Assembly: GCA_027604705.1 (NCBI GenBank)
Contig: JADHYV010000001.1
Coordinates: 976,498 to 1,040,497, forward strand
DNA length: 64,000 nt
Source of the DNA: Allomyces arbusculus
Lineage: Eukaryota > Blastocladiomycota > Blastocladiomycetes > Blastocladiales > Blastocladiaceae
Direction: 5' to 3'
Numbering within the stretch: the stretch's first letter is position 1; every line of letters begins with the position of its first letter. Both the position numbers and the translations under genes were made by a program. Below are positions 11,753 through 55,972 of this stretch, piece by piece. The notes under the pieces were generated by a model. That model worked only from the letters and a program-made list of their open reading frames with translations. It was not told the DNA's origin and ran no database searches.

Positions 11753-14700
11753 CTAAAGCTCACGCCGCAGGTCCTCAATGATCCGGTCCCCACCCAGCCG
11801 CAGGAGCTCCTTGGCCGTCGCGATTCCCGAACCGGTCGTCGCCGAGACATGCCGCGTGCCATCCAGACTCCAGACATGTCCCTCGATCCGCCACCCGGCA
11901 ATATCTGCAGCCGTCCACTCCAGCTTCTTACCCGACTCAAACTCGGACGGCAGGGGCTTACCCTGCACATCGAGCGCGGTCGCGAGCACGGCGACGGGCA
12001 CTTGGCACCCGCCCTCGACAGCGGCAAGCATCGCGCGCTCGTGCGCGATCGCCGCGCGCGTCGCGGTATGATCGACACCGACACGCAACAATCGGCGCAC
12101 GCCGCGGTCGCGCGCGCGCACCTGGACGCCAATCGCGCCCTGCGACGTGGACGGGACAAAGATGGGTTCGGCCTTGGCGCCCGGGGTCGGGGACAGCGCC
12201 TGCACGTGGCACGCGGCAAGCAGCGCACCGGATTCCGGAACACGTTCGAGCCCGGCCATGGCAAGGACGAGGGCGTCGTACCGGACGTTGGCCGTGGGCG
12301 CATGCGTGCCGAGCAGCTTGGCGATCCGTGTGTTCAAGTTGCCGCGCACGTCAATGATTTTCAAGTCCGGGCGCACAGCGGCCAGCTGCGCGCGGCGGCG
12401 CAGCGACGACGTGCCGACGGTCGCGCCCTTGGGCAGGGTGGCGAGCGTGTACTTGTGCTCGGCACGCGAGACGAGAGCGTCGCGGCGGTCGGCGCGCTTG
12501 AGGACCGCAGCGAGGGCGAGCCCCGCGGGCTGCCGCGTCTCGAGGTCCTTCAGCGAGTGCTGCACGAGGTGCACGCGGCCGCGCATCAGCGACCATTCGA
12601 GCTCCTTAGTGAACAGGCCACGCGACCCGATCTTGGCAAGCGCGACATCAAGAATCTTGTCCCCCTTGGTGGCGACACCGTCGATCCGGAACCGGTGCTT
12701 CGGCGCTGGCGACCAGCCCGGGTTGCTCGACTGGGCAAGCGCCGTGGCATGCCGCTCGGCCTGCTCGACCCCGGCGCGCTCGAGCGCGGCCTGGACCATG
12801 TGCGCCTGTGCCATGGCGAGCGGCGAGTTGCGCGACCCAATCACGACCGTCTGCGCCTCGTCAACAAACGCGCCAATCGCTTCCGGGTCCATGTCGGGCT
12901 TGGTCCCGTGGCCGAGGTTCACAATGTACCGGTGCCGGCCAAACGCGGCAATCATTTCGCGCACCTTGGCGCGAATCTTGTCGTGCGGCTCGTAGAGCGC
13001 GTCCGGCTCGAGGTTGCCCTGGAGCGTGACAAACTCGCCGGCAGCAGCGCGGGCCTCGGCGGGGACACCCGCCCAGTCGACGGAAATCGCATCGTAGAGC
13101 GTCTCCTGCGCAATGCGCGCGGTCGCATAGTTGGCGCCGCGCGGGAACAAGGTCATGGGCACGTGGGGGTGGCGACCCTTGACCCCCTGCGCGATGTCGG
13201 TCAGGTACGGCAGCGCAAACTCGTAAAAATCAGCGGGACCCAAATCGGCAGCGTTGGATTCAAACACTTGGACGACGTCGGCGCCCGCGTCCACTTGTTT
13301 GGCGAGGTAATCAATGGCCACGTCGGTGCACTTGCGAAGGAGCTGGTGCGCCCAGTCCGGGTGCATGTGCAACCACTTCTTGGCGAGGTCCTTGCCAATC
13401 ATGTAGGCCATGAGCGTCCAGGGCCCACCGCAGAACCCGACCAGCGCCTTGTCATGTGCAAGCTGCGCGCGCGTCTGCCGCAGCGCCGCGTAGACGTGCT
13501 CCAGGATGGCCGGTTGGTATGCGAGCCGCTCAATGTCCTCGAGCGTGCGAATCGGGTTCGGGAAGAACGGGCCCGGCTGCATGATGAGCTCCATGCCGAG
13601 CGCCTGCGGAATCGTCATAATGTCCGAGAAAATAATGGCGCAGTCGACATTGTAGCGCCACACGGGCTGCAGCGTGATTTCCGCCGCAAGCACCGGGTCG
13701 GCCGTCATATCGAGGAAGTTCTTGGTGCCCTTGGCGGCCATGTACTCGGGCAAGTACCGACCAGCTTGCCGGTGCAGCCAGACGGGCGGACGGGCGACCG
13801 ACACACCGCGCAGTGCCTGCACAAACAGCGTCTCAATGTAACTCGGGCGCGGCGAGCGCAGGACCACGGCGAGTGACCGCGCGCGGCGCGGGATCGTGGC
13901 CGCGAGCGTCTCGTCCTCGGGCGTCGTGCCATTGTTGACGGTGTCGACAAGCAGACGCGGTGCGAAATCAGCGTGCGGCGGCAAGCACGGCAGCGGGACG
14001 CCCGACTCGTGCAGAGCGAGCGCCAAGTGACCCTTACGGAGCGCGACCCACGCGAGTTCCGCGGCCGTCAACGGGTGCGCCGGACCTGCGGGCGGCAAGT
14101 CGCGTACCGTCTCCTTGAGCGTCGTGCGCACCGACTTCAGGGCCTCAACGTCGTCCTGGTCCTCGGGATCCGGCAACCCAAGCCGGATTTCCTCTTCGGC
14201 CGCGGCCATTTCGTCGGCGTGCCGCGTGAGCAGCGTCAGGTACGTCTCCATGAGCGGCAAAACAATACGCTGCAGCAGAATATCCGGATCCTCGCTGTCC
14301 ATCGTGGGCACGGCCACACGCAGACCACCAATCCCGCGGTGCGCAAATTCCGTGTTCGACGCAGCGACAAAAGCGTCGTCGGCCTCGCGCTTGGCCGCCG
14401 CGTAGTCGGTCCGGGCCGCGGGGCACGCGTCACGCACGGCCATGTGCCAGTCGCACGCGTCGTCCTCGTCCAAAAAGTACGGCAGCAACTCGGCGTCAAC
14501 GTGAACCGTGGTCGTCATGGACGACACGCGCGGATGCCCGAGTGGGGCCTCGACCGCCTTGGGCGGCGTCTTGCGGCCACCGCGGCGCTTGCTGCCATGC
14601 CGACCCACTTTGCTCGGCGACGGCGACGGTGCGCGCCCGTTCGACGACGACGACGCGGCCACGGCACCCATGACGGGGCACTTGGCGGCCGACGCGGCGT

Positions 14701-15031
14701 CGGTCTCGCGCTGCACGCGCCAGGAGACGTGCATGGCCGGCGCGCGTGGCGACGCGGGCCAGCACGTCAGGTGCGTCGTCGACGTTGCCGCGTTGCGCGC
14801 CATGACAGCGCGCTCGAGCAGCCGCGACCCGTGCGACACAATCACCGACGTGGCCGGGTGGTTGGCCGGAGCGACTTCGCAGACACGAGCGAGGACGGGT
14901 GCCTCGGAGCACGGCGCTGCGGCCTCAGCGGCCTGGATAACAGCAACGACGCGTGCGGCGAGGCACGGGCCGTGTGCGGCCATGGTGGCCGTCGTCGGGG
15001 ACTGCATGGACAGGGTAACGTTCGCGACCAT
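11753..15031 (-). CDS. fused CPOX-like / UroD / hydroxymethylbilane synthase
   Basis: One uninterrupted frame of 1092 residues carries three haem-pathway domains in order. Residues about 20-390 align with oxygen-dependent coproporphyrinogen oxidase: SVIVSHG, PAMHVSWR, ELLPYFLDEDDACDWH, HRGIGG, LTAAELAWVALRKG. Several active-site positions are changed, so this part may be inactive. Residues about 400-727 are uroporphyrinogen decarboxylase with WLHRQAGRYLPEY (Arg421, Arg425), IIFSDI (Asp470), GPWTLMAYM (Tyr543) and LGHGTKPDMDPE (His708). Residues 728-1092 are hydroxymethylbilane synthase with IGSRNSPLA, HSLKDL (Asp829), the SSLRRRAQ substrate-binding arginines and the cofactor cysteine Cys1009 in EGGCQVP. 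The last two domains look catalytically complete. Uroporphyrinogen-III synthase, the step between them, is absent. The start at 15031 could instead be 15007. The gene is divergent from uL11m. Confidence 0.92.
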   Translation of the reverse strand: MVANVTLSMQSPTTATMAAHGPCLAARVVAVIQAAEAAAPCSEAPVLARVCEVAPANHPATSVIVSHGSRLLERAVMARNAATSTTHLTCWPASPRAPAMHVSWRVQRETDAASAAKCPVMGAVAASSSSNGRAPSPSPSKVGRHGSKRRGGRKTPPKAVEAPLGHPRVSSMTTTVHVDAELLPYFLDEDDACDWHMAVRDACPAARTDYAAAKREADDAFVAASNTEFAHRGIGGLRVAVPTMDSEDPDILLQRIVLPLMETYLTLLTRHADEMAAAEEEIRLGLPDPEDQDDVEALKSVRTTLKETVRDLPPAGPAHPLTAAELAWVALRKGHLALALHESGVPLPCLPPHADFAPRLLVDTVNNGTTPEDETLAATIPRRARSLAVVLRSPRPSYIETLFVQALRGVSVARPPVWLHRQAGRYLPEYMAAKGTKNFLDMTADPVLAAEITLQPVWRYNVDCAIIFSDIMTIPQALGMELIMQPGPFFPNPIRTLEDIERLAYQPAILEHVYAALRQTRAQLAHDKALVGFCGGPWTLMAYMIGKDLAKKWLHMHPDWAHQLLRKCTDVAIDYLAKQVDAGADVVQVFESNAADLGPADFYEFALPYLTDIAQGVKGRHPHVPMTLFPRGANYATARIAQETLYDAISVDWAGVPAEARAAAGEFVTLQGNLEPDALYEPHDKIRAKVREMIAAFGRHRYIVNLGHGTKPDMDPEAIGAFVDEAQTVVIGSRNSPLAMAQAHMVQAALERAGVEQAERHATALAQSSNPGWSPAPKHRFRIDGVATKGDKILDVALAKIGSRGLFTKELEWSLMRGRVHLVQHSLKDLETRQPAGLALAAVLKRADRRDALVSRAEHKYTLATLPKGATVGTSSLRRRAQLAAVRPDLKIIDVRGNLNTRIAKLLGTHAPTANVRYDALVLAMAGLERVPESGALLAACHVQALSPTPGAKAEPIFVPSTSQGAIGVQVRARDRGVRRLLRVGVDHTATRAAIAHERAMLAAVEGGCQVPVAVLATALDVQGKPLPSEFESGKKLEWTAADIAGWRIEGHVWSLDGTRHVSATTGSGIATAKELLRLGGDRIIEDLRREL

Positions 15032-16439: not shown

Positions 16440-17164
16440 TCACGCATCTGCCAACGACGGTCCGGCAGCCTCGCGGGGTTCTGCAGCATCGAACATCTCG
16501 TCATCCTCAGCGTCCTCCTCGTCGCCCTCCCCCGTATACTCGACGATATTCTTGGCAGTCTCCCAAATCGTGACCTTGGCGAGCCGCGGCGCTGCGATGC
16601 CGTCGCCCATTGGGCCCAAGTACTGCGGCAAGTGCTTGCGCAGCTGCCGGAAAACGTAGACGGCGAGGTTCTCGGTGGTGGACGGCACCCCCTGCGCAAA
16701 GAACGGCACGTCGAGGTCGAGATTGCGATGGTCGACGTGGTCGAGCACGGCGCGCTGGATGCCGACTTTCAGGTCGGCAATGTTGACGACCATGCCTGTG
16801 CACTCGTCAATCGGGCCCGACACATATACTTGGACTATAGAGCCGCGAAAAGGACCCATCGTCGGTGAGTTTCCAACGCGTTCCAATTCTTGACCTTCTC
16901 TACGAGATTAGCTCCAAGCCACGTACGGGTGTAGTTGTGCCCGTGGAAATTGACATGATTGCACTTGCCAAAGATTTGCCGGTTCTCTTCGACCGACAGG
17001 TGCGGTGAGTGCAACCGGTGCGCCGCGGAAAAGGACTCGATGCGTGAAATGGTGGCAATCAACGGTCGTCGCCTCCGGCCGGCGCGGGTCGTGGCCGCGA
17101 CAGCGTCGGTGTGGGTGGGCGCAGTTGCTGGTGGGTGGTTGTGTTGGTTCATGGAGGTTGTCAT
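16440..17164 (-). CDS. 6-pyruvoyl-tetrahydropterin synthase family protein
   Basis: Two exons (17164-16927, 16834-16440) join in phase and encode about 210 residues. The intron (GTACGT..CTATAG) interrupts the motif HGHNYT/LQVYV, and splicing restores the family pattern. Visible motifs are ESFSAAHRL (first zinc-ligand His), [14 protein letters not shown] (catalytic Cys and two zinc-ligand His), [20 protein letters not shown] and [11 protein letters not shown] with the conserved Glu. All residues needed for PTPS chemistry (dihydroneopterin triphosphate to 6-pyruvoyl-tetrahydropterin) appear present, although the family also includes related pterin and queuosine enzymes. The acidic C-terminal tail ([15 protein letters not shown]) is an extension. 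The start could also be 17152; upstream in-frame ATGs make the N-terminus uncertain. The gene is convergent with uL11m. Confidence 0.9.
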
Positions 17165-18208
17165 CGTGCTGTCCGCGACAGTTGGTGGGGAGAGGTGGAG
17201 AGCGGGAACAAGGAATGGACCAGAAAGAGCCGAGGCAGGCCGGAGCTCGAGGCAGGGCAAATTTGATCGATCAGGTTTGGGGCAAATTAGACGTTTATCC
17301 TGGTTAAAGCTCAGACGCCTATACGGTGCCCGCCCCTCATCTCGTCTTCGGCTGAGTCATGGCCAAGAAACTGCCTGGCTCCCAATTTGGACACGTTTTG
17401 CTTCGGTGCTCACTCTGCCGGCCAAAGGTCAGACTGGTCCGAGTTCTCGCACGGGGAAGGAATCCTTCATTTACTTTCTGCAGCCAGTGGCTTATCTCTG
17501 GCGCAATCTCGCGGAAGTGTTGCTGCCGGGTGTCGCCAGGCCTCAGGCCGCGCGCGCTCCACCAAACGCGCGGTTGCGCGCTCAGCACGGTGCATCCATG
17601 ACCATCGATGCAATCTCGGATCTCATGAGCCTCGCCGCAGCAATCAAGCAGATACTGGCACGACGAGCGCATCTCTAGCTTATGTTCGTTGGGAAAGTGG
17701 TGCACTTTAATTTGCGCGGTCGCGCTTGATGAACGCGTGCCCAGCCGCAACGAGCAATCGTCACGCGCGTCGGTGCGCACTCGGGAGGCAAAAACCAGCT
17801 GACCGCGTAGCCTTGTGGTCAAACCCCCATGCCAAGGCAACCAGCGCTGCTCGCGTCGGTCTCGCCATTGCCATCGCCACACCACCCAGTGCGGCCAGCG
17901 ATGAGCAACGCGCGCGACGCGTTGTGGGCCATGGTTGGGGCGAGCTGGCCAACGCGACGCGTCGCAACGGCGCCGTGCGCCATATAAATACGCACCCCGC
18001 CGCCCGTCAAGCATCTCCTCACCCAAATTCGCTCGACGAAGGCGCGCAGGCCCTTCTTCCTCGACCACAGAACCTGACAGAAGCCCTGCACCGCGCTCAA
18101 CACCAACGACGACCCGCCCGCACCGCGCTCATTGCCGTTCGCCTCCCACCATCACGGAACCCGACCGATTCGACCAAATCCGACCAAACAACCCTGCACG
18201 AAGCACCA
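17165..18208. other. divergent intergenic region, no gene seen
   Basis: The region lies between the PTPS start (minus) and a small + strand gene. Several chance frames cross it, the longest at 17337-18068 on the minus strand, but none has domain-like composition. It includes a TATA box near its right end, so most of the right part is probably promoter and 5' UTR. Confidence 0.5.
17983..17990 (+). promoter_or_regulatory. TATA box, TATAAATA
   Basis: TATAAATA stands out in otherwise GC-rich DNA, about 220 bp upstream of the ATG at 18209. This implies a 5' UTR of roughly 190 nt for the small gene downstream. Confidence 0.55.
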
Positions 18209-22939: not shown

Positions 22940-24928
22940 ATGACCAGCGCCGCCTTTGATCTCCAGGGCGCGGGCGCCCTGGGCACGCTCCTGTCCGGCA
23001 ACAGCACGTCGCGCATCCTCAACGGCGTCCACGCTGCGATCGCGACCACCAAGACGCTAACCCCACTGCAAGCGGTTGGCGCCACGTTTGGCACGCTCGT
23101 CGCTGCTCTGATCGCCGTCTTGTTCTACGAGCGCAAGCGCAAGATCCGCCACGACATTCCAACAATTCCAACATGGGGCCCGCTTGGCAGTGCGCCCGAA
23201 ATGCTCGCGCACCGGTGGGACCGACTCGACTGGTCGCTGTGGAAGCAGCGGTGGCATCTCGACCGCGGCGACGGCATGACGGCCTACGTCTGGGCACCAT
23301 TCCAGCCGACGCTGATCGTGACGTGCGACCCGCGCAACGTCGAGCACGTGCTCAAGACGCGCTTCGATGTGCGTGATCCCTCTCGTTTGAGTGGCGTTGA
23401 GAAGACGCACGTAGCTGATTCGAAGCGGCTTCTCCTTGGAACAACAGAACTACATCAAGGGGCCCGTGTTCGACAAAATCCAGCGGGTGATGCTCGGTCC
23501 GTCGTCACTCTTCCACCGCCTCCGCTACGCGCTCAACTTGGTGGTCCCCGCTCACCTCGGCTCTCTTTGCTTTGCCCACATAGGCCATGGCATCTTTAAC
23601 GCGGACGGCGAGCAGTGGCGCGTGCAGCGCAAGACCGCGGCCAACATGTTCACGATCAACAACTTCCGCGACTTCATGATGCACGTCTTCCTCGACCGGT
23701 CGCAGATCCTGACGAGCCGCCTGCGCGACGCAGCGCGGTCGGGGACCATTGTTGATCTGCACGACTTGCTCTACCGGTTCACGCTCGACTCGTTCATGGA
23801 AATCGGCTACGGCGCGCGCATCGATGCGCTGAAGTCGGACGAGCCGATTCCGTTTGCCGCTGCATTCGACCGCGGTACGTGGAAATACGCTCTTGAACGT
23901 CCGCGTTATCAACGAATTCTGACCTTGCGCCACTGCGTTTTCCCATTTTACAGCCCAGACCATCATCAACCGCCGCTACAGCATGGGCAAGATCCAGTGG
24001 AAGGTCATCGAGTGGTTCACGGGCGAGGGCAAGGAGGTTGTGGAGTGCATGAAGGTTGCCGACAAGTTTGCCTACGACCTGATCGCACAGCGCCGCGCCG
24101 AGGGTGGTCTCGAGTCCAAGAACGACTTGCTCTCGCGTCTCCTTGTCATGAAGAACCCGGAAACGGGCAAGCCCTACCCGGACGTTGAGCTGCGCGACAT
24201 GGTCCTGAACTTGTACGCCCTTCCCTTAATCCCTTGATCTACAATGTGCAATTCACGGCCCGCGTGCAATAACTGACCCATCCCCACCGCTCCTCCCCGA
24301 AACTAGCCTCATTGCCGGCCGCGACACGACGGCACAGTCGCTCTCGTGGACCTTCTTTGAGCTCGCCAAGCATCCCGAGGCCGTGGCCAAGTTCCGCGCC
24401 GAAATTTCGGAGGCGTGCCCCGACGGCGAGCCCGACTACCAGACGGTGACCAAGCAGCTTAAGTACGGTGCTGCGATCCTGAGCGAAGGCTTGCGTCTGC
24501 ACCCGAGTGTCCCCGCCGAGATCAAGTTTGCCGTCGAGGATGACGTCTGGCCCGACGGCACGCGTATTCGCAAGGGTGACGGCACCGCATGGATGCCTTG
24601 GGTCATGGGCCGGTTGCCGGAACTGTGGGGCGACGACGCGCTCGAGTTCAAGCCCGAGCGGTGGATCGATTCGAAGCACCCGGGTCCCTTCAAGTGGCCC
24701 GTGTTCAACGGTGGGCCGCGCACATGCTTGGGTCAACCGATGGTCTACATCCAGGCTGTCGCGTGCTTGGCCGAGGTGACGCGCCAGTTTGACCTGGAGC
24801 TGGTGGCGCCCGAGGAAGTCGTCTACCGCCCGGCGCTGACGCTGCAGATGAAGAATGGGCTGCGCGTCCGCGTCCACGAGCGCGGTGCGGCCGACCGCAC
24901 GGACGAGGGGATTGCTTTTTGCGCGTGA
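22940..24928 (+). CDS. cytochrome P450 monooxygenase
   Basis: Five exons join in phase: 22940-23368, 23448-23496, 23584-23874, 23954-24212 and 24307-24928, giving 549 residues. The protein has an N-terminal membrane anchor at about residues 45-63 followed by basic residues, as in endoplasmic-reticulum P450s. The I-helix motif AGRDTTAQSLSW (O2 activation Thr), the K-helix EGLR, FKPERW and the haem-ligand motif FNGGPRTCLGQPM (Cys about 483) are all present, so the enzyme looks intact. Overall pattern (NYIKGPVF, GHGIFNADGEQWRVQRKTA, FTLDSFMEIGYG) resembles the CYP86/CYP704/CYP52-type fatty-acid hydroxylase clan, but the substrate is not determinable here. Electrons would come from an NADPH-P450 reductase such as the one encoded at 53.8-56.0 kb. 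Exon 2 is only 49 nt. Confidence 0.93.
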
Positions 24929-45100: not shown

Positions 45101-48060
45101 ATGCCGCCGGCAGGGCGCCGACCTGCCCGACCCGTACCACCATCGTCCTCGGGTCCTGCTCCTCCCGCACCTGCGTCCTCGTCCGCGAGTCGCTCGTCGC
45201 GTGCACGCCCCGCGATTACCGTCCGCCAGCCGACGCTCGATTACTTTGGCCAGCTCGCTGCAGGCAGCAGCACCGCCAACAGTTCGTCGAACAGGCCGCC
45301 CGCGTTCTCGTCTTCCTCGTCCACCCAATCCCGCAAGCGCTCGCACGACGCGGCCGATCTCTCCACCCACGACGACCGTCCCACGATGCTTCATCAACCG
45401 TCCAGCACCCATGGGAGCCGTTCGTCTGCCTCTGCTCCCGCGCGGCAGGCCGCGCCAGCATCATCGGCGTCGTCACAGCCCGCTGCAGCCGCTACACCGC
45501 GGTCACTGACGTTTGCGCGCCAATCCAACTTCATGCTGGGCCCCAACGGGTCTTCAACTCCGTCGACCACGATGGCGGCAGCAACGCGCCCAGCGCTCGG
45601 CAGCAAGCACTTTGCCAAGAAGTTGGTGATTCGCGACCTGAATATCAAACCGACGCTGCCGCCTGACTTTGAAGCCACGACCTGGTCCAAACTGGCCGCA
45701 GCGATCACGGCCATTTTCGCGCGCCAGCCCGTAGCCGACTCGCTCGAGGAGCTCTACAAGGCGTGCGAGGCGCTATGCAAGCATCATTTCGCGGCCAATG
45801 TCTACTCGCGCGTCGCCGCCGCCATCACCGACCAGGTGCGCGCGTGCTTCACGTCCCTCGCCGCTGTGCCCGACGACGATTTCCTGGCCCCGCTCGTCCG
45901 CGCCTGGACCGACTTCACCGACGCGCTGCTGCTCGTGCGCGCCGTGTTCATGTATCTCGACCGCACCTACGCGCTCCCGCGGCACGAGCGTCCGCTCTAT
46001 GATTTGGGGCTGCACTTGTTTGCGGAGCATGTCATTCTCGCGCACCATTACCAGCTGCGCGACCGTGCTCTAGCAGCTGTTGACCGCGCGCTCGCGTCCG
46101 CACGCGACCTCGAGTCTGTGCCGTCGTCAGAAACCAAGTCGCAGCTCGCCGGCACGGCGGCCCTGTTTCGCGCACTGCATCTCGACGCGCCTGTCCTCTC
46201 GCCACACGTCGTGCGTGAAGTGCGGCAGTCGTTGGCACGTGCGGCGGCGACGGAATTGGCCGTGCAGATGAGCGACCCGGCCGCGTACCTCGACTGGATT
46301 GATGCGGTGCTCGATCGCGAAAAGGTGCTCGCAGAAACGATGGCGCTCGCGGGCGCGGCAGATGTGGACGCGGCGGTGCGGAACGTCGTGATTGCGCAGC
46401 ACGCGGACGTTCTGCTCGCGGGCGTCCCCGCGTGGTTGCTTGACGGCGATGCCGCGGCACTCGCGCGCGTCATGGACCGTCTCGCGTCAGTCAACTTGCT
46501 CGCGCCGCTCGTCGACCAAGTCGGTGCCTGGATCGCCGAACAGGGGTGTGCAATTGTCGAGCGCGAGGCCGCCAAGGCGCGCGGTGCCGCCGTTCCCGCG
46601 ATCGCCGGGCGGCAAGCCGCGTGGCACAATCCGACGGGCACGGTCCCGATGATCGAAGCGCTGCTGGTCTTCAAGCAGCACGTGGACGTCTTGGTCGTGA
46701 GCGCGTTCCGGTCGCACATGGACGTGCAGAACGCGGTCAAATCGGCGCTGCACAAGGCTATGAATGTGGTCAAAAACAAGCCGGCCGAGTGCATGGCCAA
46801 GTACGTTGACGAGCAACTGCGGTCGCGACGCACCGTGGATGAGGCGCGGTTGGAGCAGACGTTGGACCAGGTGCTGCACTTGTTCCGGCATGTGGATGCC
46901 AAGGATACGTTCGAGGCGTTCTACAAGCAGTTGCTCGCGAAGCGGTTGTTGCTTGGGCGCGTCACGTCGATGGATGCGGAAAAGTCGATGGTTGCGCGGT
47001 TGCGCGCTGGTGCGTGTTGATGGTGGACGTGATGAGATTCGCGCGTGGGACTGACGGCGTTTGTGTGTGTAGAGCGCGGCGTACAGTCGACCGAGGCACT
47101 CGACAAGATGTTTGCCGACGTGGAGCTCTCGGACCAGCTGGCCAAAGCCTTCAAGGACTCGCGCTTCGCCGCGCAAATGCCCGGAGGGTACGACTTGTCG
47201 GTGACTGTCTGCCAGAGCTCGGCCTGGCCGACGCTCACGACCACCGTCTCGGCGCTGCACGGCAAGTCGAGCGGCAACGGCCACGACGACGACAAGTCGG
47301 CGCCCAAGCCCATTGGTCGGCTGCCTGAGTTTATGGCGCGTGGGGTCGAGCTCTTCTCACAGTTTTACGCGACGCAATACTCGGGGCGGCAACTCGCGTG
47401 GCAGCACGACATGGACCAGGTCACACTCAAGACGAGTTTCGGCAAGGAACTCGATGTCGCGCTCGTGCAGGCGCTCGTCCTGCTCGAGTTTGCCGACATG
47501 GACGCGCCGCCGCTCTCGTTTACAGAATTACACGCGCGCACAGGGATCGAGCCGGCCGAACTCAAGCGCACGTTGCAGTCGCTCGCGTGTGGGAAAGTGC
47601 GCGTCTTGAAAAAATCGCCGCCGCCGGCACGCGAGTCCGGTGGCGAGATTGCCGACACGGATACGTTTACGCCCGTGGCCAAGCTCGACCAAGTGAAAAA
47701 GTACCGGTTCCGGATCCCTCAAATCATTCCGCGCGAGGTGCAGCAGCAGGACGACGAGCACACGCACGAGCAGGTGGCCGAGGACCGGTCGCTTGCATTG
47801 CAGGCGGCGATTGTGCGCGTCATGAAGGCACGGAAAGTCCTGCCCTACCAGGCGCTGCTGAGTGAAGTGATTTCGCAGTGCAAATTTCCGGTCGAGGTAC
47901 GTTGACACTCTACCGACTTGCTTTCTGCTGGACCGAGGCTAATCGATCGTGGCTCGATTGATAGGCATCCAAGTTCAAGCTGCAGATCGAGGACCTCACG
48001 GAGCGCGAGTTCTTGGAGCGCGACAAGGACCAGCACAATGTATATAGGTATGTGGCCTAA
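45101..48060 (+). CDS. CUL4: cullin 4, scaffold of CRL4 ubiquitin ligases
   Basis: Three exons (45101-47009, 47073-47896, 47965-48060) encode 942 residues. Residues 1-165 are Ser/Ala/Pro-rich and include VRQPTLDYFGQ (residues 41-51), which resembles a PCNA-binding motif. The cullin body starts KKLVIRDLNIKPTLPPDFEATTW and runs through three helical repeats. The cullin homology domain includes VDAKDTFEAFYKQLLAKRLLLG, MPGGYDLSVTVCQSSAWPT and LAWQHDMDQVTLKTSF, which read like CUL4. The C-terminus has IVRVMKARKVLPYQALLSEV, with the neddylation lysine, and ends EREFLERDKDQHNVYRYVA, the canonical cullin end. CUL4 binds DDB1 and RBX1 and targets replication and repair factors. The start is uncertain because the frame is open upstream to 44453; 45101 is a compromise. 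Confidence 0.93.
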
Positions 48061-53811: not shown

Positions 53812-55972
53812 TTACGCCCATACATCCTCGAGGTACCGCCCCTTGGTGCGCATATCCTTGACGTACCGTTCGGCTTTTTCCTTGGACAATCCACCGCGCG
53901 TCATGGCCGCCTCCACAAACCACCGGTGCACGTCGCGCGCCATATTCTTGGCGTCGCCGCACACGTAGACGTGCGCTCCCTTGCGCACCAAGTCCCAGAC
54001 GCGGCCGCCGTGTTCGGCAAGCCGGTGTTGCACGTACACTTTCTGGTCGGTATCGCGCGAGAACGCCGTGAACATTTCCGTGAGCCCGCCCTGGGCCAAG
54101 TACTCGGGCCACTCTCTTGCGTACAAGAAATCGTGCTTCTCGTGCCGGCACCCAAAGAAGAGGAGCGCGTCGCCCAATGGAACTGGAGGAATCGCGGGAG
54201 TTGACGATTTGGCCTTGGCCACGAGCGCGCACCGCTCCTGGACAAACCCGCGAAACGGCGCGACGCCCGTCCCGGGCCCAATCATGATGATGGGGGTCGC
54301 GTTCTGCCGCGGAAGCTTGAACGCAGCGTGCCGAATTGCCACGGGTACGGAAATGATCGTATTTGGGTCGCGCTGCATCTGTTCGTGCAAGTCGAGCAGG
54401 TGTCGCGTGCATAGGCCGTGCACCGACTTGTTCTTGGCCGCCGAATCGTATCGCAGCACCGTGGCCGTGATGTGCACGCGGTTCGGGTTGCCGAGGTACC
54501 GCGGTGACGACGAGATCGAGTAATACCGCGGCTGAATGCGTGTAAACGATTCGAAGACGATATCGAGCGGGAGTGGTGGAACAATCGGGTGCTTGAGCAA
54601 CAGCTCTGCGACCGTCGTGTGATGGTCGGTGATTTCGGCCGCGTACGCGGCCTTGTCGCCCGCGAGCCGCGCATAGATCGCGCGCGTCGCCGGGTCGGCA
54701 ATGTGCGGCAACCACGCCTGCAAAATGTGCGGCTTGGGCGGGACGGCAATGTCGAGGTAGTGCGTGAACGCGGTGCGGTAGGTCGTCGGGCACGGGAACG
54801 GGTGCTTTTTAGTCGCAGCCGGGTCCGTTGAGGTAAGGGAAAACACATTGTCAAGCCGGTCCATGAGCCCGAGCGCCCGCGCCAGCATTTCCACGTCGTG
54901 CCGCTGGTTTTGCGGCCAAATCGCGAGATGGTCGCCCGGCTGATATATGAGCTTGGATTCGGTCAGGTCGAGCTCAACGTGCACGCAGTTGCGCACGGGC
55001 ACTTCCTTGCCCGAAAACAGCTCGCGCGTCGCGACGATCCGCGCCATGAACGGGTTCTTGGCGTCGTACGTTGTCAGCGTTTTCTCGCCGAGCTCACCGC
55101 GGTACACGGTGGGCGGCGTTTCCTTGTGGTCAACGAGCGTAAACGATCGCGACTGTCCCGCGGCCGCGGCCTTGACCGCTTCCGCCGCCAGATCAATCCC
55201 GTAAAATTGGGCAAACTCAGGCCACACTGTCTCACGCCACTGCGTGAAATCCTCTTCCATGTTGGCGTCATCGTCGCCCTCGCCGCGCGGGCCGATCCGC
55301 GTCGCGCCAAGCGCTGAGCAGCACTTGTCGATACTGCGCGCCATGGCATTGAACAGCTCGTAGGTCTTGTTGCCGAGCCCAAACACGGCATAGTGCAGAT
55401 TGCGCAGTGGCATGTTGTCGGTGTCGGCGTTGCGAAACTCTTCGTACTGCTGTGACAGGTACTCGTTGAGCGCCATGGCATTATCGGTCGGCTCGCCCTC
55501 GCCGTACGTGGCTAAGACAAAGATGACGAGTTTCGTCGCAGGGATTTCGGCCAGCTCCTCGACGTCAATATCCTCCGGGTCGAGTGCGAGCGCGTGCAGG
55601 CCGTACTTGGCCGCGTCCTTGACGAGCCGTCCGGCATAGTCTTCAGCTATTGAGATCAAGCACGGTTTGGCCGTTGGCACTCCTCTCTGCATCAACCATT
55701 GCCGCCCTATCAAATTTGAACCCCCTACCCGTGCCAGTCTGGCTCCCGTAGAGCACCACCACATCCTTGCCATCTTGCTCAAAATTGGCCACGAGCGAGC
55801 GGGCATCGGGCGTCTTGGTGACGCGCGCTGCTGCTCGCGGGTCGATCGCACGCGTTGTCGGACCGTTAACATCGCCTCGGCCGCGGAAGAGCCACAGAAA
55901 CCCGCCGAGCGCGAGCGCGCTGAGTATCAGCAGGTTCGAGGCATCCATGAAGGGCGAAGAATGGCCCGGCAT
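53812..55972 (-). CDS. CPR: NADPH-cytochrome P450 reductase
   Basis: Two exons (55972-55729, 55646-53812) encode 692 residues. A membrane anchor lies at residues 13-29 (NLLILSALALGGFLWLF). The flavodoxin domain has the FMN loop YGSQTGTAEDYAGRL, restored by splicing across the 82-nt intron, and VLATYGEGEPTDNA, HYAVFGLGNKTYELF. The FAD/NADPH domain has the FAD motif RYYSISSSP, IGPGTGVAPFRGFVQER and FFGCRHEKHDFLYAREW for NADPH, CGDAKNMARDV and the C-terminal EDVWA, in which the Trp stacks on FAD. All expected motifs are intact. It passes electrons from NADPH to ER P450s (for example the one at 22.9 kb), squalene epoxidase and haem oxygenase. The start could also be the second Met at 55948. Confidence 0.96.

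Follow-up and report, generated by a model that had tools for sequence, protein, structure and literature searches.

The locus lies on the reverse strand of a 64,000-nucleotide (64 kb) stretch of DNA, which is referred to here as the window. It consists of one ATG-to-TAG open reading frame encoding 1092 amino acids with no internal stop, and it is called intronless only in the sense of an open frame judged from DNA alone. Along the chain, the Pfam matches follow the order CPOX, URO-D, Porphobil_deam and Porphobil_deamC, corresponding to a coproporphyrinogen oxidase (CPOX)-like region, a uroporphyrinogen decarboxylase (UROD) and a hydroxymethylbilane synthase (HMBS). The features of the locus and its surroundings are collected in Table 1.

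Table 1. Features of the fusion locus and of neighbouring genes in the window (positions count from the first letter of the window)
Feature	Residues	Positions	Strand	Basis or remark
Whole open reading frame	1-1092	11753..15031	-	1092 codons + TAG; ATG at 15031, TAG at 11753; coding-type codon bias
N-terminal flank of CPOX-like core	1-177	14501..15031	-	without Pfam match of its own; coding bias
Possible decayed CPOX strand pair	61-110	14702-14851	-	profile alignment; may be such a pair
Possible basic Ser/Pro-rich insert	111-177	14501-14701	-	may be an insert
CPOX-like core	178-282	14186..14500	-	PF01218 match, 2aex match, 8/11 near-invariant columns
Acidic stretch, possibly with a decayed CPOX C-terminal part	283-395	13847..14185	-	without DRGT, FGLxTGG
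Uroporphyrinogen decarboxylase	396-727	12851..13846	-	Pfam, NCBIfam, structure alignment, active-site residues
T728, sole residue between UROD and HMBS matches	728	12848..12850	-	Pfam
Hydroxymethylbilane synthase	729-1092	11756..12847	-	Pfam, NCBIfam, structure alignment, active-site residues
Ribosomal protein L11		15766-16203	+	next upstream
6-pyruvoyl tetrahydropterin synthase (PTPS) piece		16464-16823	-	next upstream
Cytochrome P450 piece		24308-24913	+	same window
Flavodoxin/FAD/NAD reductase, P450-reductase type		53827-55626	-	same window

Synonymous codon bias was scored with codons 401-1092 of the same frame as the training set, so that the values for UROD and HMBS, unlike those for the N-terminal part, come from their own training data. 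The fusion frame exceeded the other five frames in 8/8 partly overlapping segments, with values of 0.577 for residues 61-107, 0.456 for residues 108-177 and 0.397 for UROD; the lowest value, 0.181, was found for residues 1-60. Controls placed upstream and downstream of the frame were negative in 6/6 frames. Because the coding-type bias continues along the frame, residues 111-177, basic and rich in Ser and Pro, seem to be translated and not part of an intron. An antisense open frame of 675 aa (11849-13876, forward strand) lies opposite the fusion and is probably a by-product of high G+C content and biased codons.

The UROD part is matched by URO-D (PF01208) at residues 401-727 over profile positions 4-344 of 346, with 363.8 bits and above the cut-off and length thresholds. 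Similarly, the NCBIfam hemE model (TIGR01464) is passed with 346.5 bits against a cut-off of 302.95. Both the motif scan and the structure alignment place R421, R425, D470, Y543, S592 and H708, which we take to be the UROD active-site residues. The top solved structure, 3gw0, scores 309.3 bits over most of the length; it opens a group of similar structures extending to 1jpk, presumably all human UROD, beyond which the best structure scores 222.7 bits. In a small bacterial set (7 rows), 50 of the 65 invariant columns are kept, and the GGG loop that follows YMI in bacterial UROD is missing from the fusion. The UROD part is apparently intact and is a predicted decarboxylase.

The HMBS part follows after one residue. 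Porphobil_deam (PF01379) covers residues 729-978 (profile 1-205 of 207, 210.7 bits, again above both thresholds), Porphobil_deamC (PF03900) covers residues 995-1075 (profile 4-63 of 74, 31 bits against a cut-off of 26), and the NCBIfam hemC model (TIGR00212) is passed with 223.7 bits against 164. The expected residues are present: C1009, presumably the cofactor cysteine; R734, K828, D829, R878, R879, R896, R902 and R930, which we take to be active-site residues; and S736, to which we assign a catalytic role on the same assumption. The structures 1ah5 (157.5 bits) and 7ccx (150.7 bits), which we assume to be bacterial and human HMBS, respectively, align over most of the length. Of the invariant columns in a small bacterial set (5 rows), 64/81 are kept, and two insertions occur at approximately residues 755-776 and 1024-1046. 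The HMBS part is apparently intact and is a predicted synthase. Given the missing GGG loop in UROD and the two insertions in HMBS, activity of the enzymes is not certain. Collectively, an earlier note on this DNA, which had described a single 1092-codon frame with a CPOX-like part, a complete UROD and a complete HMBS in this order, the last two joined almost without linker near residue 728, agrees with these matches. The joint open frame of UROD and HMBS is real and unusual.

The CPOX-like part is matched over a shorter region. CPOX (PF01218) aligns with residues 180-278 over profile positions 125-223 of 295 (99 positions, 37.4 bits, E = 1.5e-9), and it is only this core of about 100 residues that exceeds the Pfam gathering cut-off of 31.8 bits. 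The NCBIfam model of oxygen-dependent CPOX (PRK05330) gives 28 bits against an equivalog cut-off of 297. The best solved structure for this part, human CPOX (2aex), aligns over residues 181-282 (E = 4.8e-5), about 100 residues only. A profile built from 63 non-redundant bacterial CPOX sequences, drawn from 131 loci, scores 29.7 bits against the same core. Of the 11 core columns conserved in at least 95% of these 63 diverse rows, 8 are kept, and the three losses are the Asp of DLTP, replaced by Glu, a Tyr replaced by Ala and a Gly replaced by Val; of the 36 core columns invariant in 24 closely related HemF rows, 17 are kept. The eight retained columns could reflect some retained function of the CPOX-like part.

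A motif scan of residues 1-400 found no DRGT, FGLxTGG or WWFGGG, and the patterns D[RK]G, RGT, GGG, WWF, W.F, GG.D, FGL, TGG, ES[IV]L and S[LM]PP were likewise absent from these residues. LPP occurs at 312 and 350, and either may be the end of a lost SLPP stretch. All four residues of DRGT are invariant in the 63 non-redundant CPOX sequences. A study cited in PMC7242693 bears a title about what Asp400, Arg262 and Arg401 do in human CPOX. By spacing, with a human CPOX numbering offset that is our assumption, Asp400 and Arg401 of the human enzyme would correspond to the first two residues of DRGT, and Arg262 to the arginine of HANVR. The counterpart of Arg262 may be R105, and no counterpart of Asp400 and Arg401 was seen in the CPOX-like part. 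The missing DRGT, FGLxTGG and WWFGGG make CPOX catalysis very unlikely, and the N-terminal part is probably a non-catalytic CPOX-derived domain, seemingly a degenerate form of the enzyme that acts directly after UROD. The idea of a three-enzyme chain, also raised in the earlier note, is therefore not supported: the UROD and HMBS matches are strong, but the CPOX part is weak, partial and devoid of these motifs. The further claim that uroporphyrinogen-III synthase (UROS, step 4) is missing from the chain stands, as the Pfam search gave no HEM4 (UROS) family match in it at E values up to 10. Additionally, no UROS family match was found in the 40 neighbouring coding-like stretches scanned in the window, from a selection of 55 that included the fusion itself.

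The flanks of the core were compared with CPOX in several ways. A local profile alignment placed residues 61-114 on CPOX profile positions 70-133. With stricter gap settings, the flank score was reached by 0/150 shuffles for the N-terminal flank and 10/150 for the C-terminal flank; with looser gaps, the corresponding counts were 75/200 and 106/200, and 104/200 for both together, so that under looser gaps the flanks add nothing above shuffles. HMMER scored the N-terminal piece at -0.6 bits (E = 0.026 for one target), and MAFFT gave conflicting registers for the flanks between alignments. The register that uses residues 61-110 is preferred here, as a choice rather than a proof. As the flank register is unreliable, a full-length MAFFT count of 18/39 columns kept was set aside.

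An AF2 model of the CPOX-like part from an alignment covering the core only had a mean pLDDT of 50.5, with low-confidence strands at residues 84-90 and 100-109, and no CPOX appeared among the best 50 PDB matches listed for this less biased model. When CPOX rows covered more of the region, the mean pLDDT was 49.0 and the top 19 PDB matches were CPOX structures (E between 0.003 and 0.07, none reaching 0.001); these matches are partly circular because the wider alignment was trimmed after the registers had been seen. Separately, a weak CPOX-profile match at 17822-18151 (9.8 bits, E = 0.017 in a search of 967 frames) lies upstream on the same strand, beyond the PTPS-like gene, and corresponds to the N-terminal GGGG region of the profile. 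This match was judged to be due to chance.

The surrounding genes encode a cullin, SMC, Urb2, a P450, a P450-reductase-like protein, GH15 pieces and PIG-H. The cullin is present in two coding pieces (45605-47014 and 47084-47896), and the gene neighbourhood indicates a eukaryotic host whose genes contain introns. Its G+C and gene content may suggest a blastocladiomycete fungus, though only at the level of a guess. Among the expressed sequence tags of the fungus Blastocladiella emersonii, a putative oxygen-independent coproporphyrinogen III oxidase is listed (PMC1550239). This enzyme would be a lead for a replacement of CPOX only if the host is a relative of that organism.

HMBS, UROD and CPOX are usually separate proteins in eukaryotes. 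The UROD and HMBS parts can be aligned with the stand-alone structures 3gw0 and 1ah5 along most of their length, but here they form one chain. Fusions of tetrapyrrole enzymes are a known kind of protein, to which this one belongs. PMC4921024 lists porphobilinogen deaminase/UROS, UROS/methyltransferase and a siroheme triple fusion, and archaeal HemA-HemB fusions and HemC with CobA-HemD fusions are described in PMC11237513. Like HemC-HemD and CobA-HemD of bacteria and archaea, the present chain joins neighbouring tetrapyrrole enzymes, and HMBS is one partner in HemC-HemD as well (PMC4921024, PMC11237513). In contrast to HemC-HemD, HMBS is joined here to UROD rather than UROS and lies C-terminal of it, a CPOX-like part is added, and the HEM4 domain that marks the HemC-HemD type is absent from the chain. 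A second parallel is mtnBD of Tetrahymena, which likewise joins, in a eukaryote, two steps of a pathway that do not follow each other; the middle gene mtnC is missing, and the fusion rescued yeast knockouts of all three genes (PMC2759508). However, mtnBD belongs to another pathway, and its missing middle gene and its bypass, assayed in yeast, are on record, whereas for the present fusion both are conjectural.

No HMBS-UROD fusion was found among the matches listed from open-access full text, and such a fusion may already be known, clade-wide, or annotated in UniProt, InterPro or eukaryotic genomes. Relatives of the fusion gave no pattern match in IMG/VR, and no place covering 80% of the query was found in phages (21 records matched) or plasmids (114 records). 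PF01379 matched in 275 of 299 bacterial genomes; among the matches listed over these genomes, nine places had open frames of at least 596 aa, a motif rule recovered the HMBS frame in 8/9, and URO-D was present in 0/8 of these long HMBS frames. By the motif rule, both enzymes shared one frame in 0/131 IMG/VR viral loci. Viral contigs in IMG/VR do carry the separate genes, with UROD (hemE) in 153 stretches, of which 80 were kept, and HMBS (hemC) in 51. Both genes occur in 24 of the 131 loci, some of which are two views of one contig. Among the 12 two-gene loci listed of these 24, the genes lie on the same strand; as open frames they overlap or almost do so in 8, and in 4 they are separated by approximately 700 bp. 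Phages seem to carry them as a pair of auxiliary haem genes.

The most economical reading of the locus is a two-enzyme tether with a pseudo-CPOX scaffold. In the route described in PMC7140478, the product of HMBS passes through UROS before UROD acts. Expressed, as we infer, as one protein with both activities, the chain would be a bifunctional HMBS-UROD built around a separate UROS, with the CPOX-derived non-catalytic part as scaffold, a reading to which we give about an even chance. HMBS of the fusion (step 3) would make hydroxymethylbilane, UROS (step 4), presumably encoded by its own gene outside the chain, would turn it into uroporphyrinogen III, and the tethered UROD (step 5) would decarboxylate this to coproporphyrinogen III. 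With the enzymes before and after UROS tethered to each other, the unstable bilane would tend to be consumed quickly, and some channelling may occur. The CPOX-like part would provide a scaffold on which the chain could dimerise or a genuine CPOX, presumably also encoded separately, could dock.

Alternatively, the CPOX-like part might be a decaying, role-less remnant of a former fusion partner and the HMBS-UROD tether neutral. The loss of the CPOX motifs, the unclear homology of the flanks in the shuffle tests and the low confidence of the AF2 fold are consistent with this, but the N-terminal stretch stays open with a coding-type codon bias and the core keeps 8/11 near-invariant columns, and we consider such a remnant unlikely. 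Those columns, together with a core match above the Pfam cut-off, could also be taken for a trifunctional enzyme whose N-terminal part is still a CPOX or acts on a related substrate; HemF2, which is related to HemF, decarboxylates a different substrate (PMC10548856). However, the three motifs are absent from residues 1-400, the Asp of DLTP is Glu, and the NCBIfam score falls far below its cut-off, which leaves a third activity very doubtful.

The frame itself could be an assembly or annotation artefact in which separate genes or mRNAs are read as one. It is known from DNA alone, and as neighbouring genes have introns, splicing of the fusion could differ from the frame; against this, the frame runs for 3279 bases with no internal stop and with coding bias along its length, and the UROD and HMBS matches share it with a single residue between them. 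An artefact is improbable. Finally, by analogy with mtnBD and its rescue of the yeast knockouts of all three genes (PMC2759508), the joined HMBS and UROD might also yield the type III isomer, so that a separate UROS would be unneeded, as mtnC is. Steps 3 and 5 are indeed joined with step 4 skipped, and the neighbouring stretches scanned hold no UROS family match, but nothing UROS-like is present in the chain, and a search of part of a 64 kb window is a poor guide to the whole genome. Such a bypass is highly improbable, and so is its extended form, in which UROS would be dispensable through a fusion yielding type III porphyrinogen and the CPOX-derived pseudoenzyme would serve as a built-in scaffold.

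Under the two-enzyme tether with a pseudo-CPOX scaffold, the natural link between HMBS and UROD would make it possible to examine whether proximity around UROS reduces the amount of hydroxymethylbilane that ends up as the type I isomer. The CPOX-derived pseudoenzyme in the same chain would, if true, be unusual as an enzyme that has become a scaffold for its pathway. Moreover, the fusion would serve as a phylogenetic marker if it is common to a clade.
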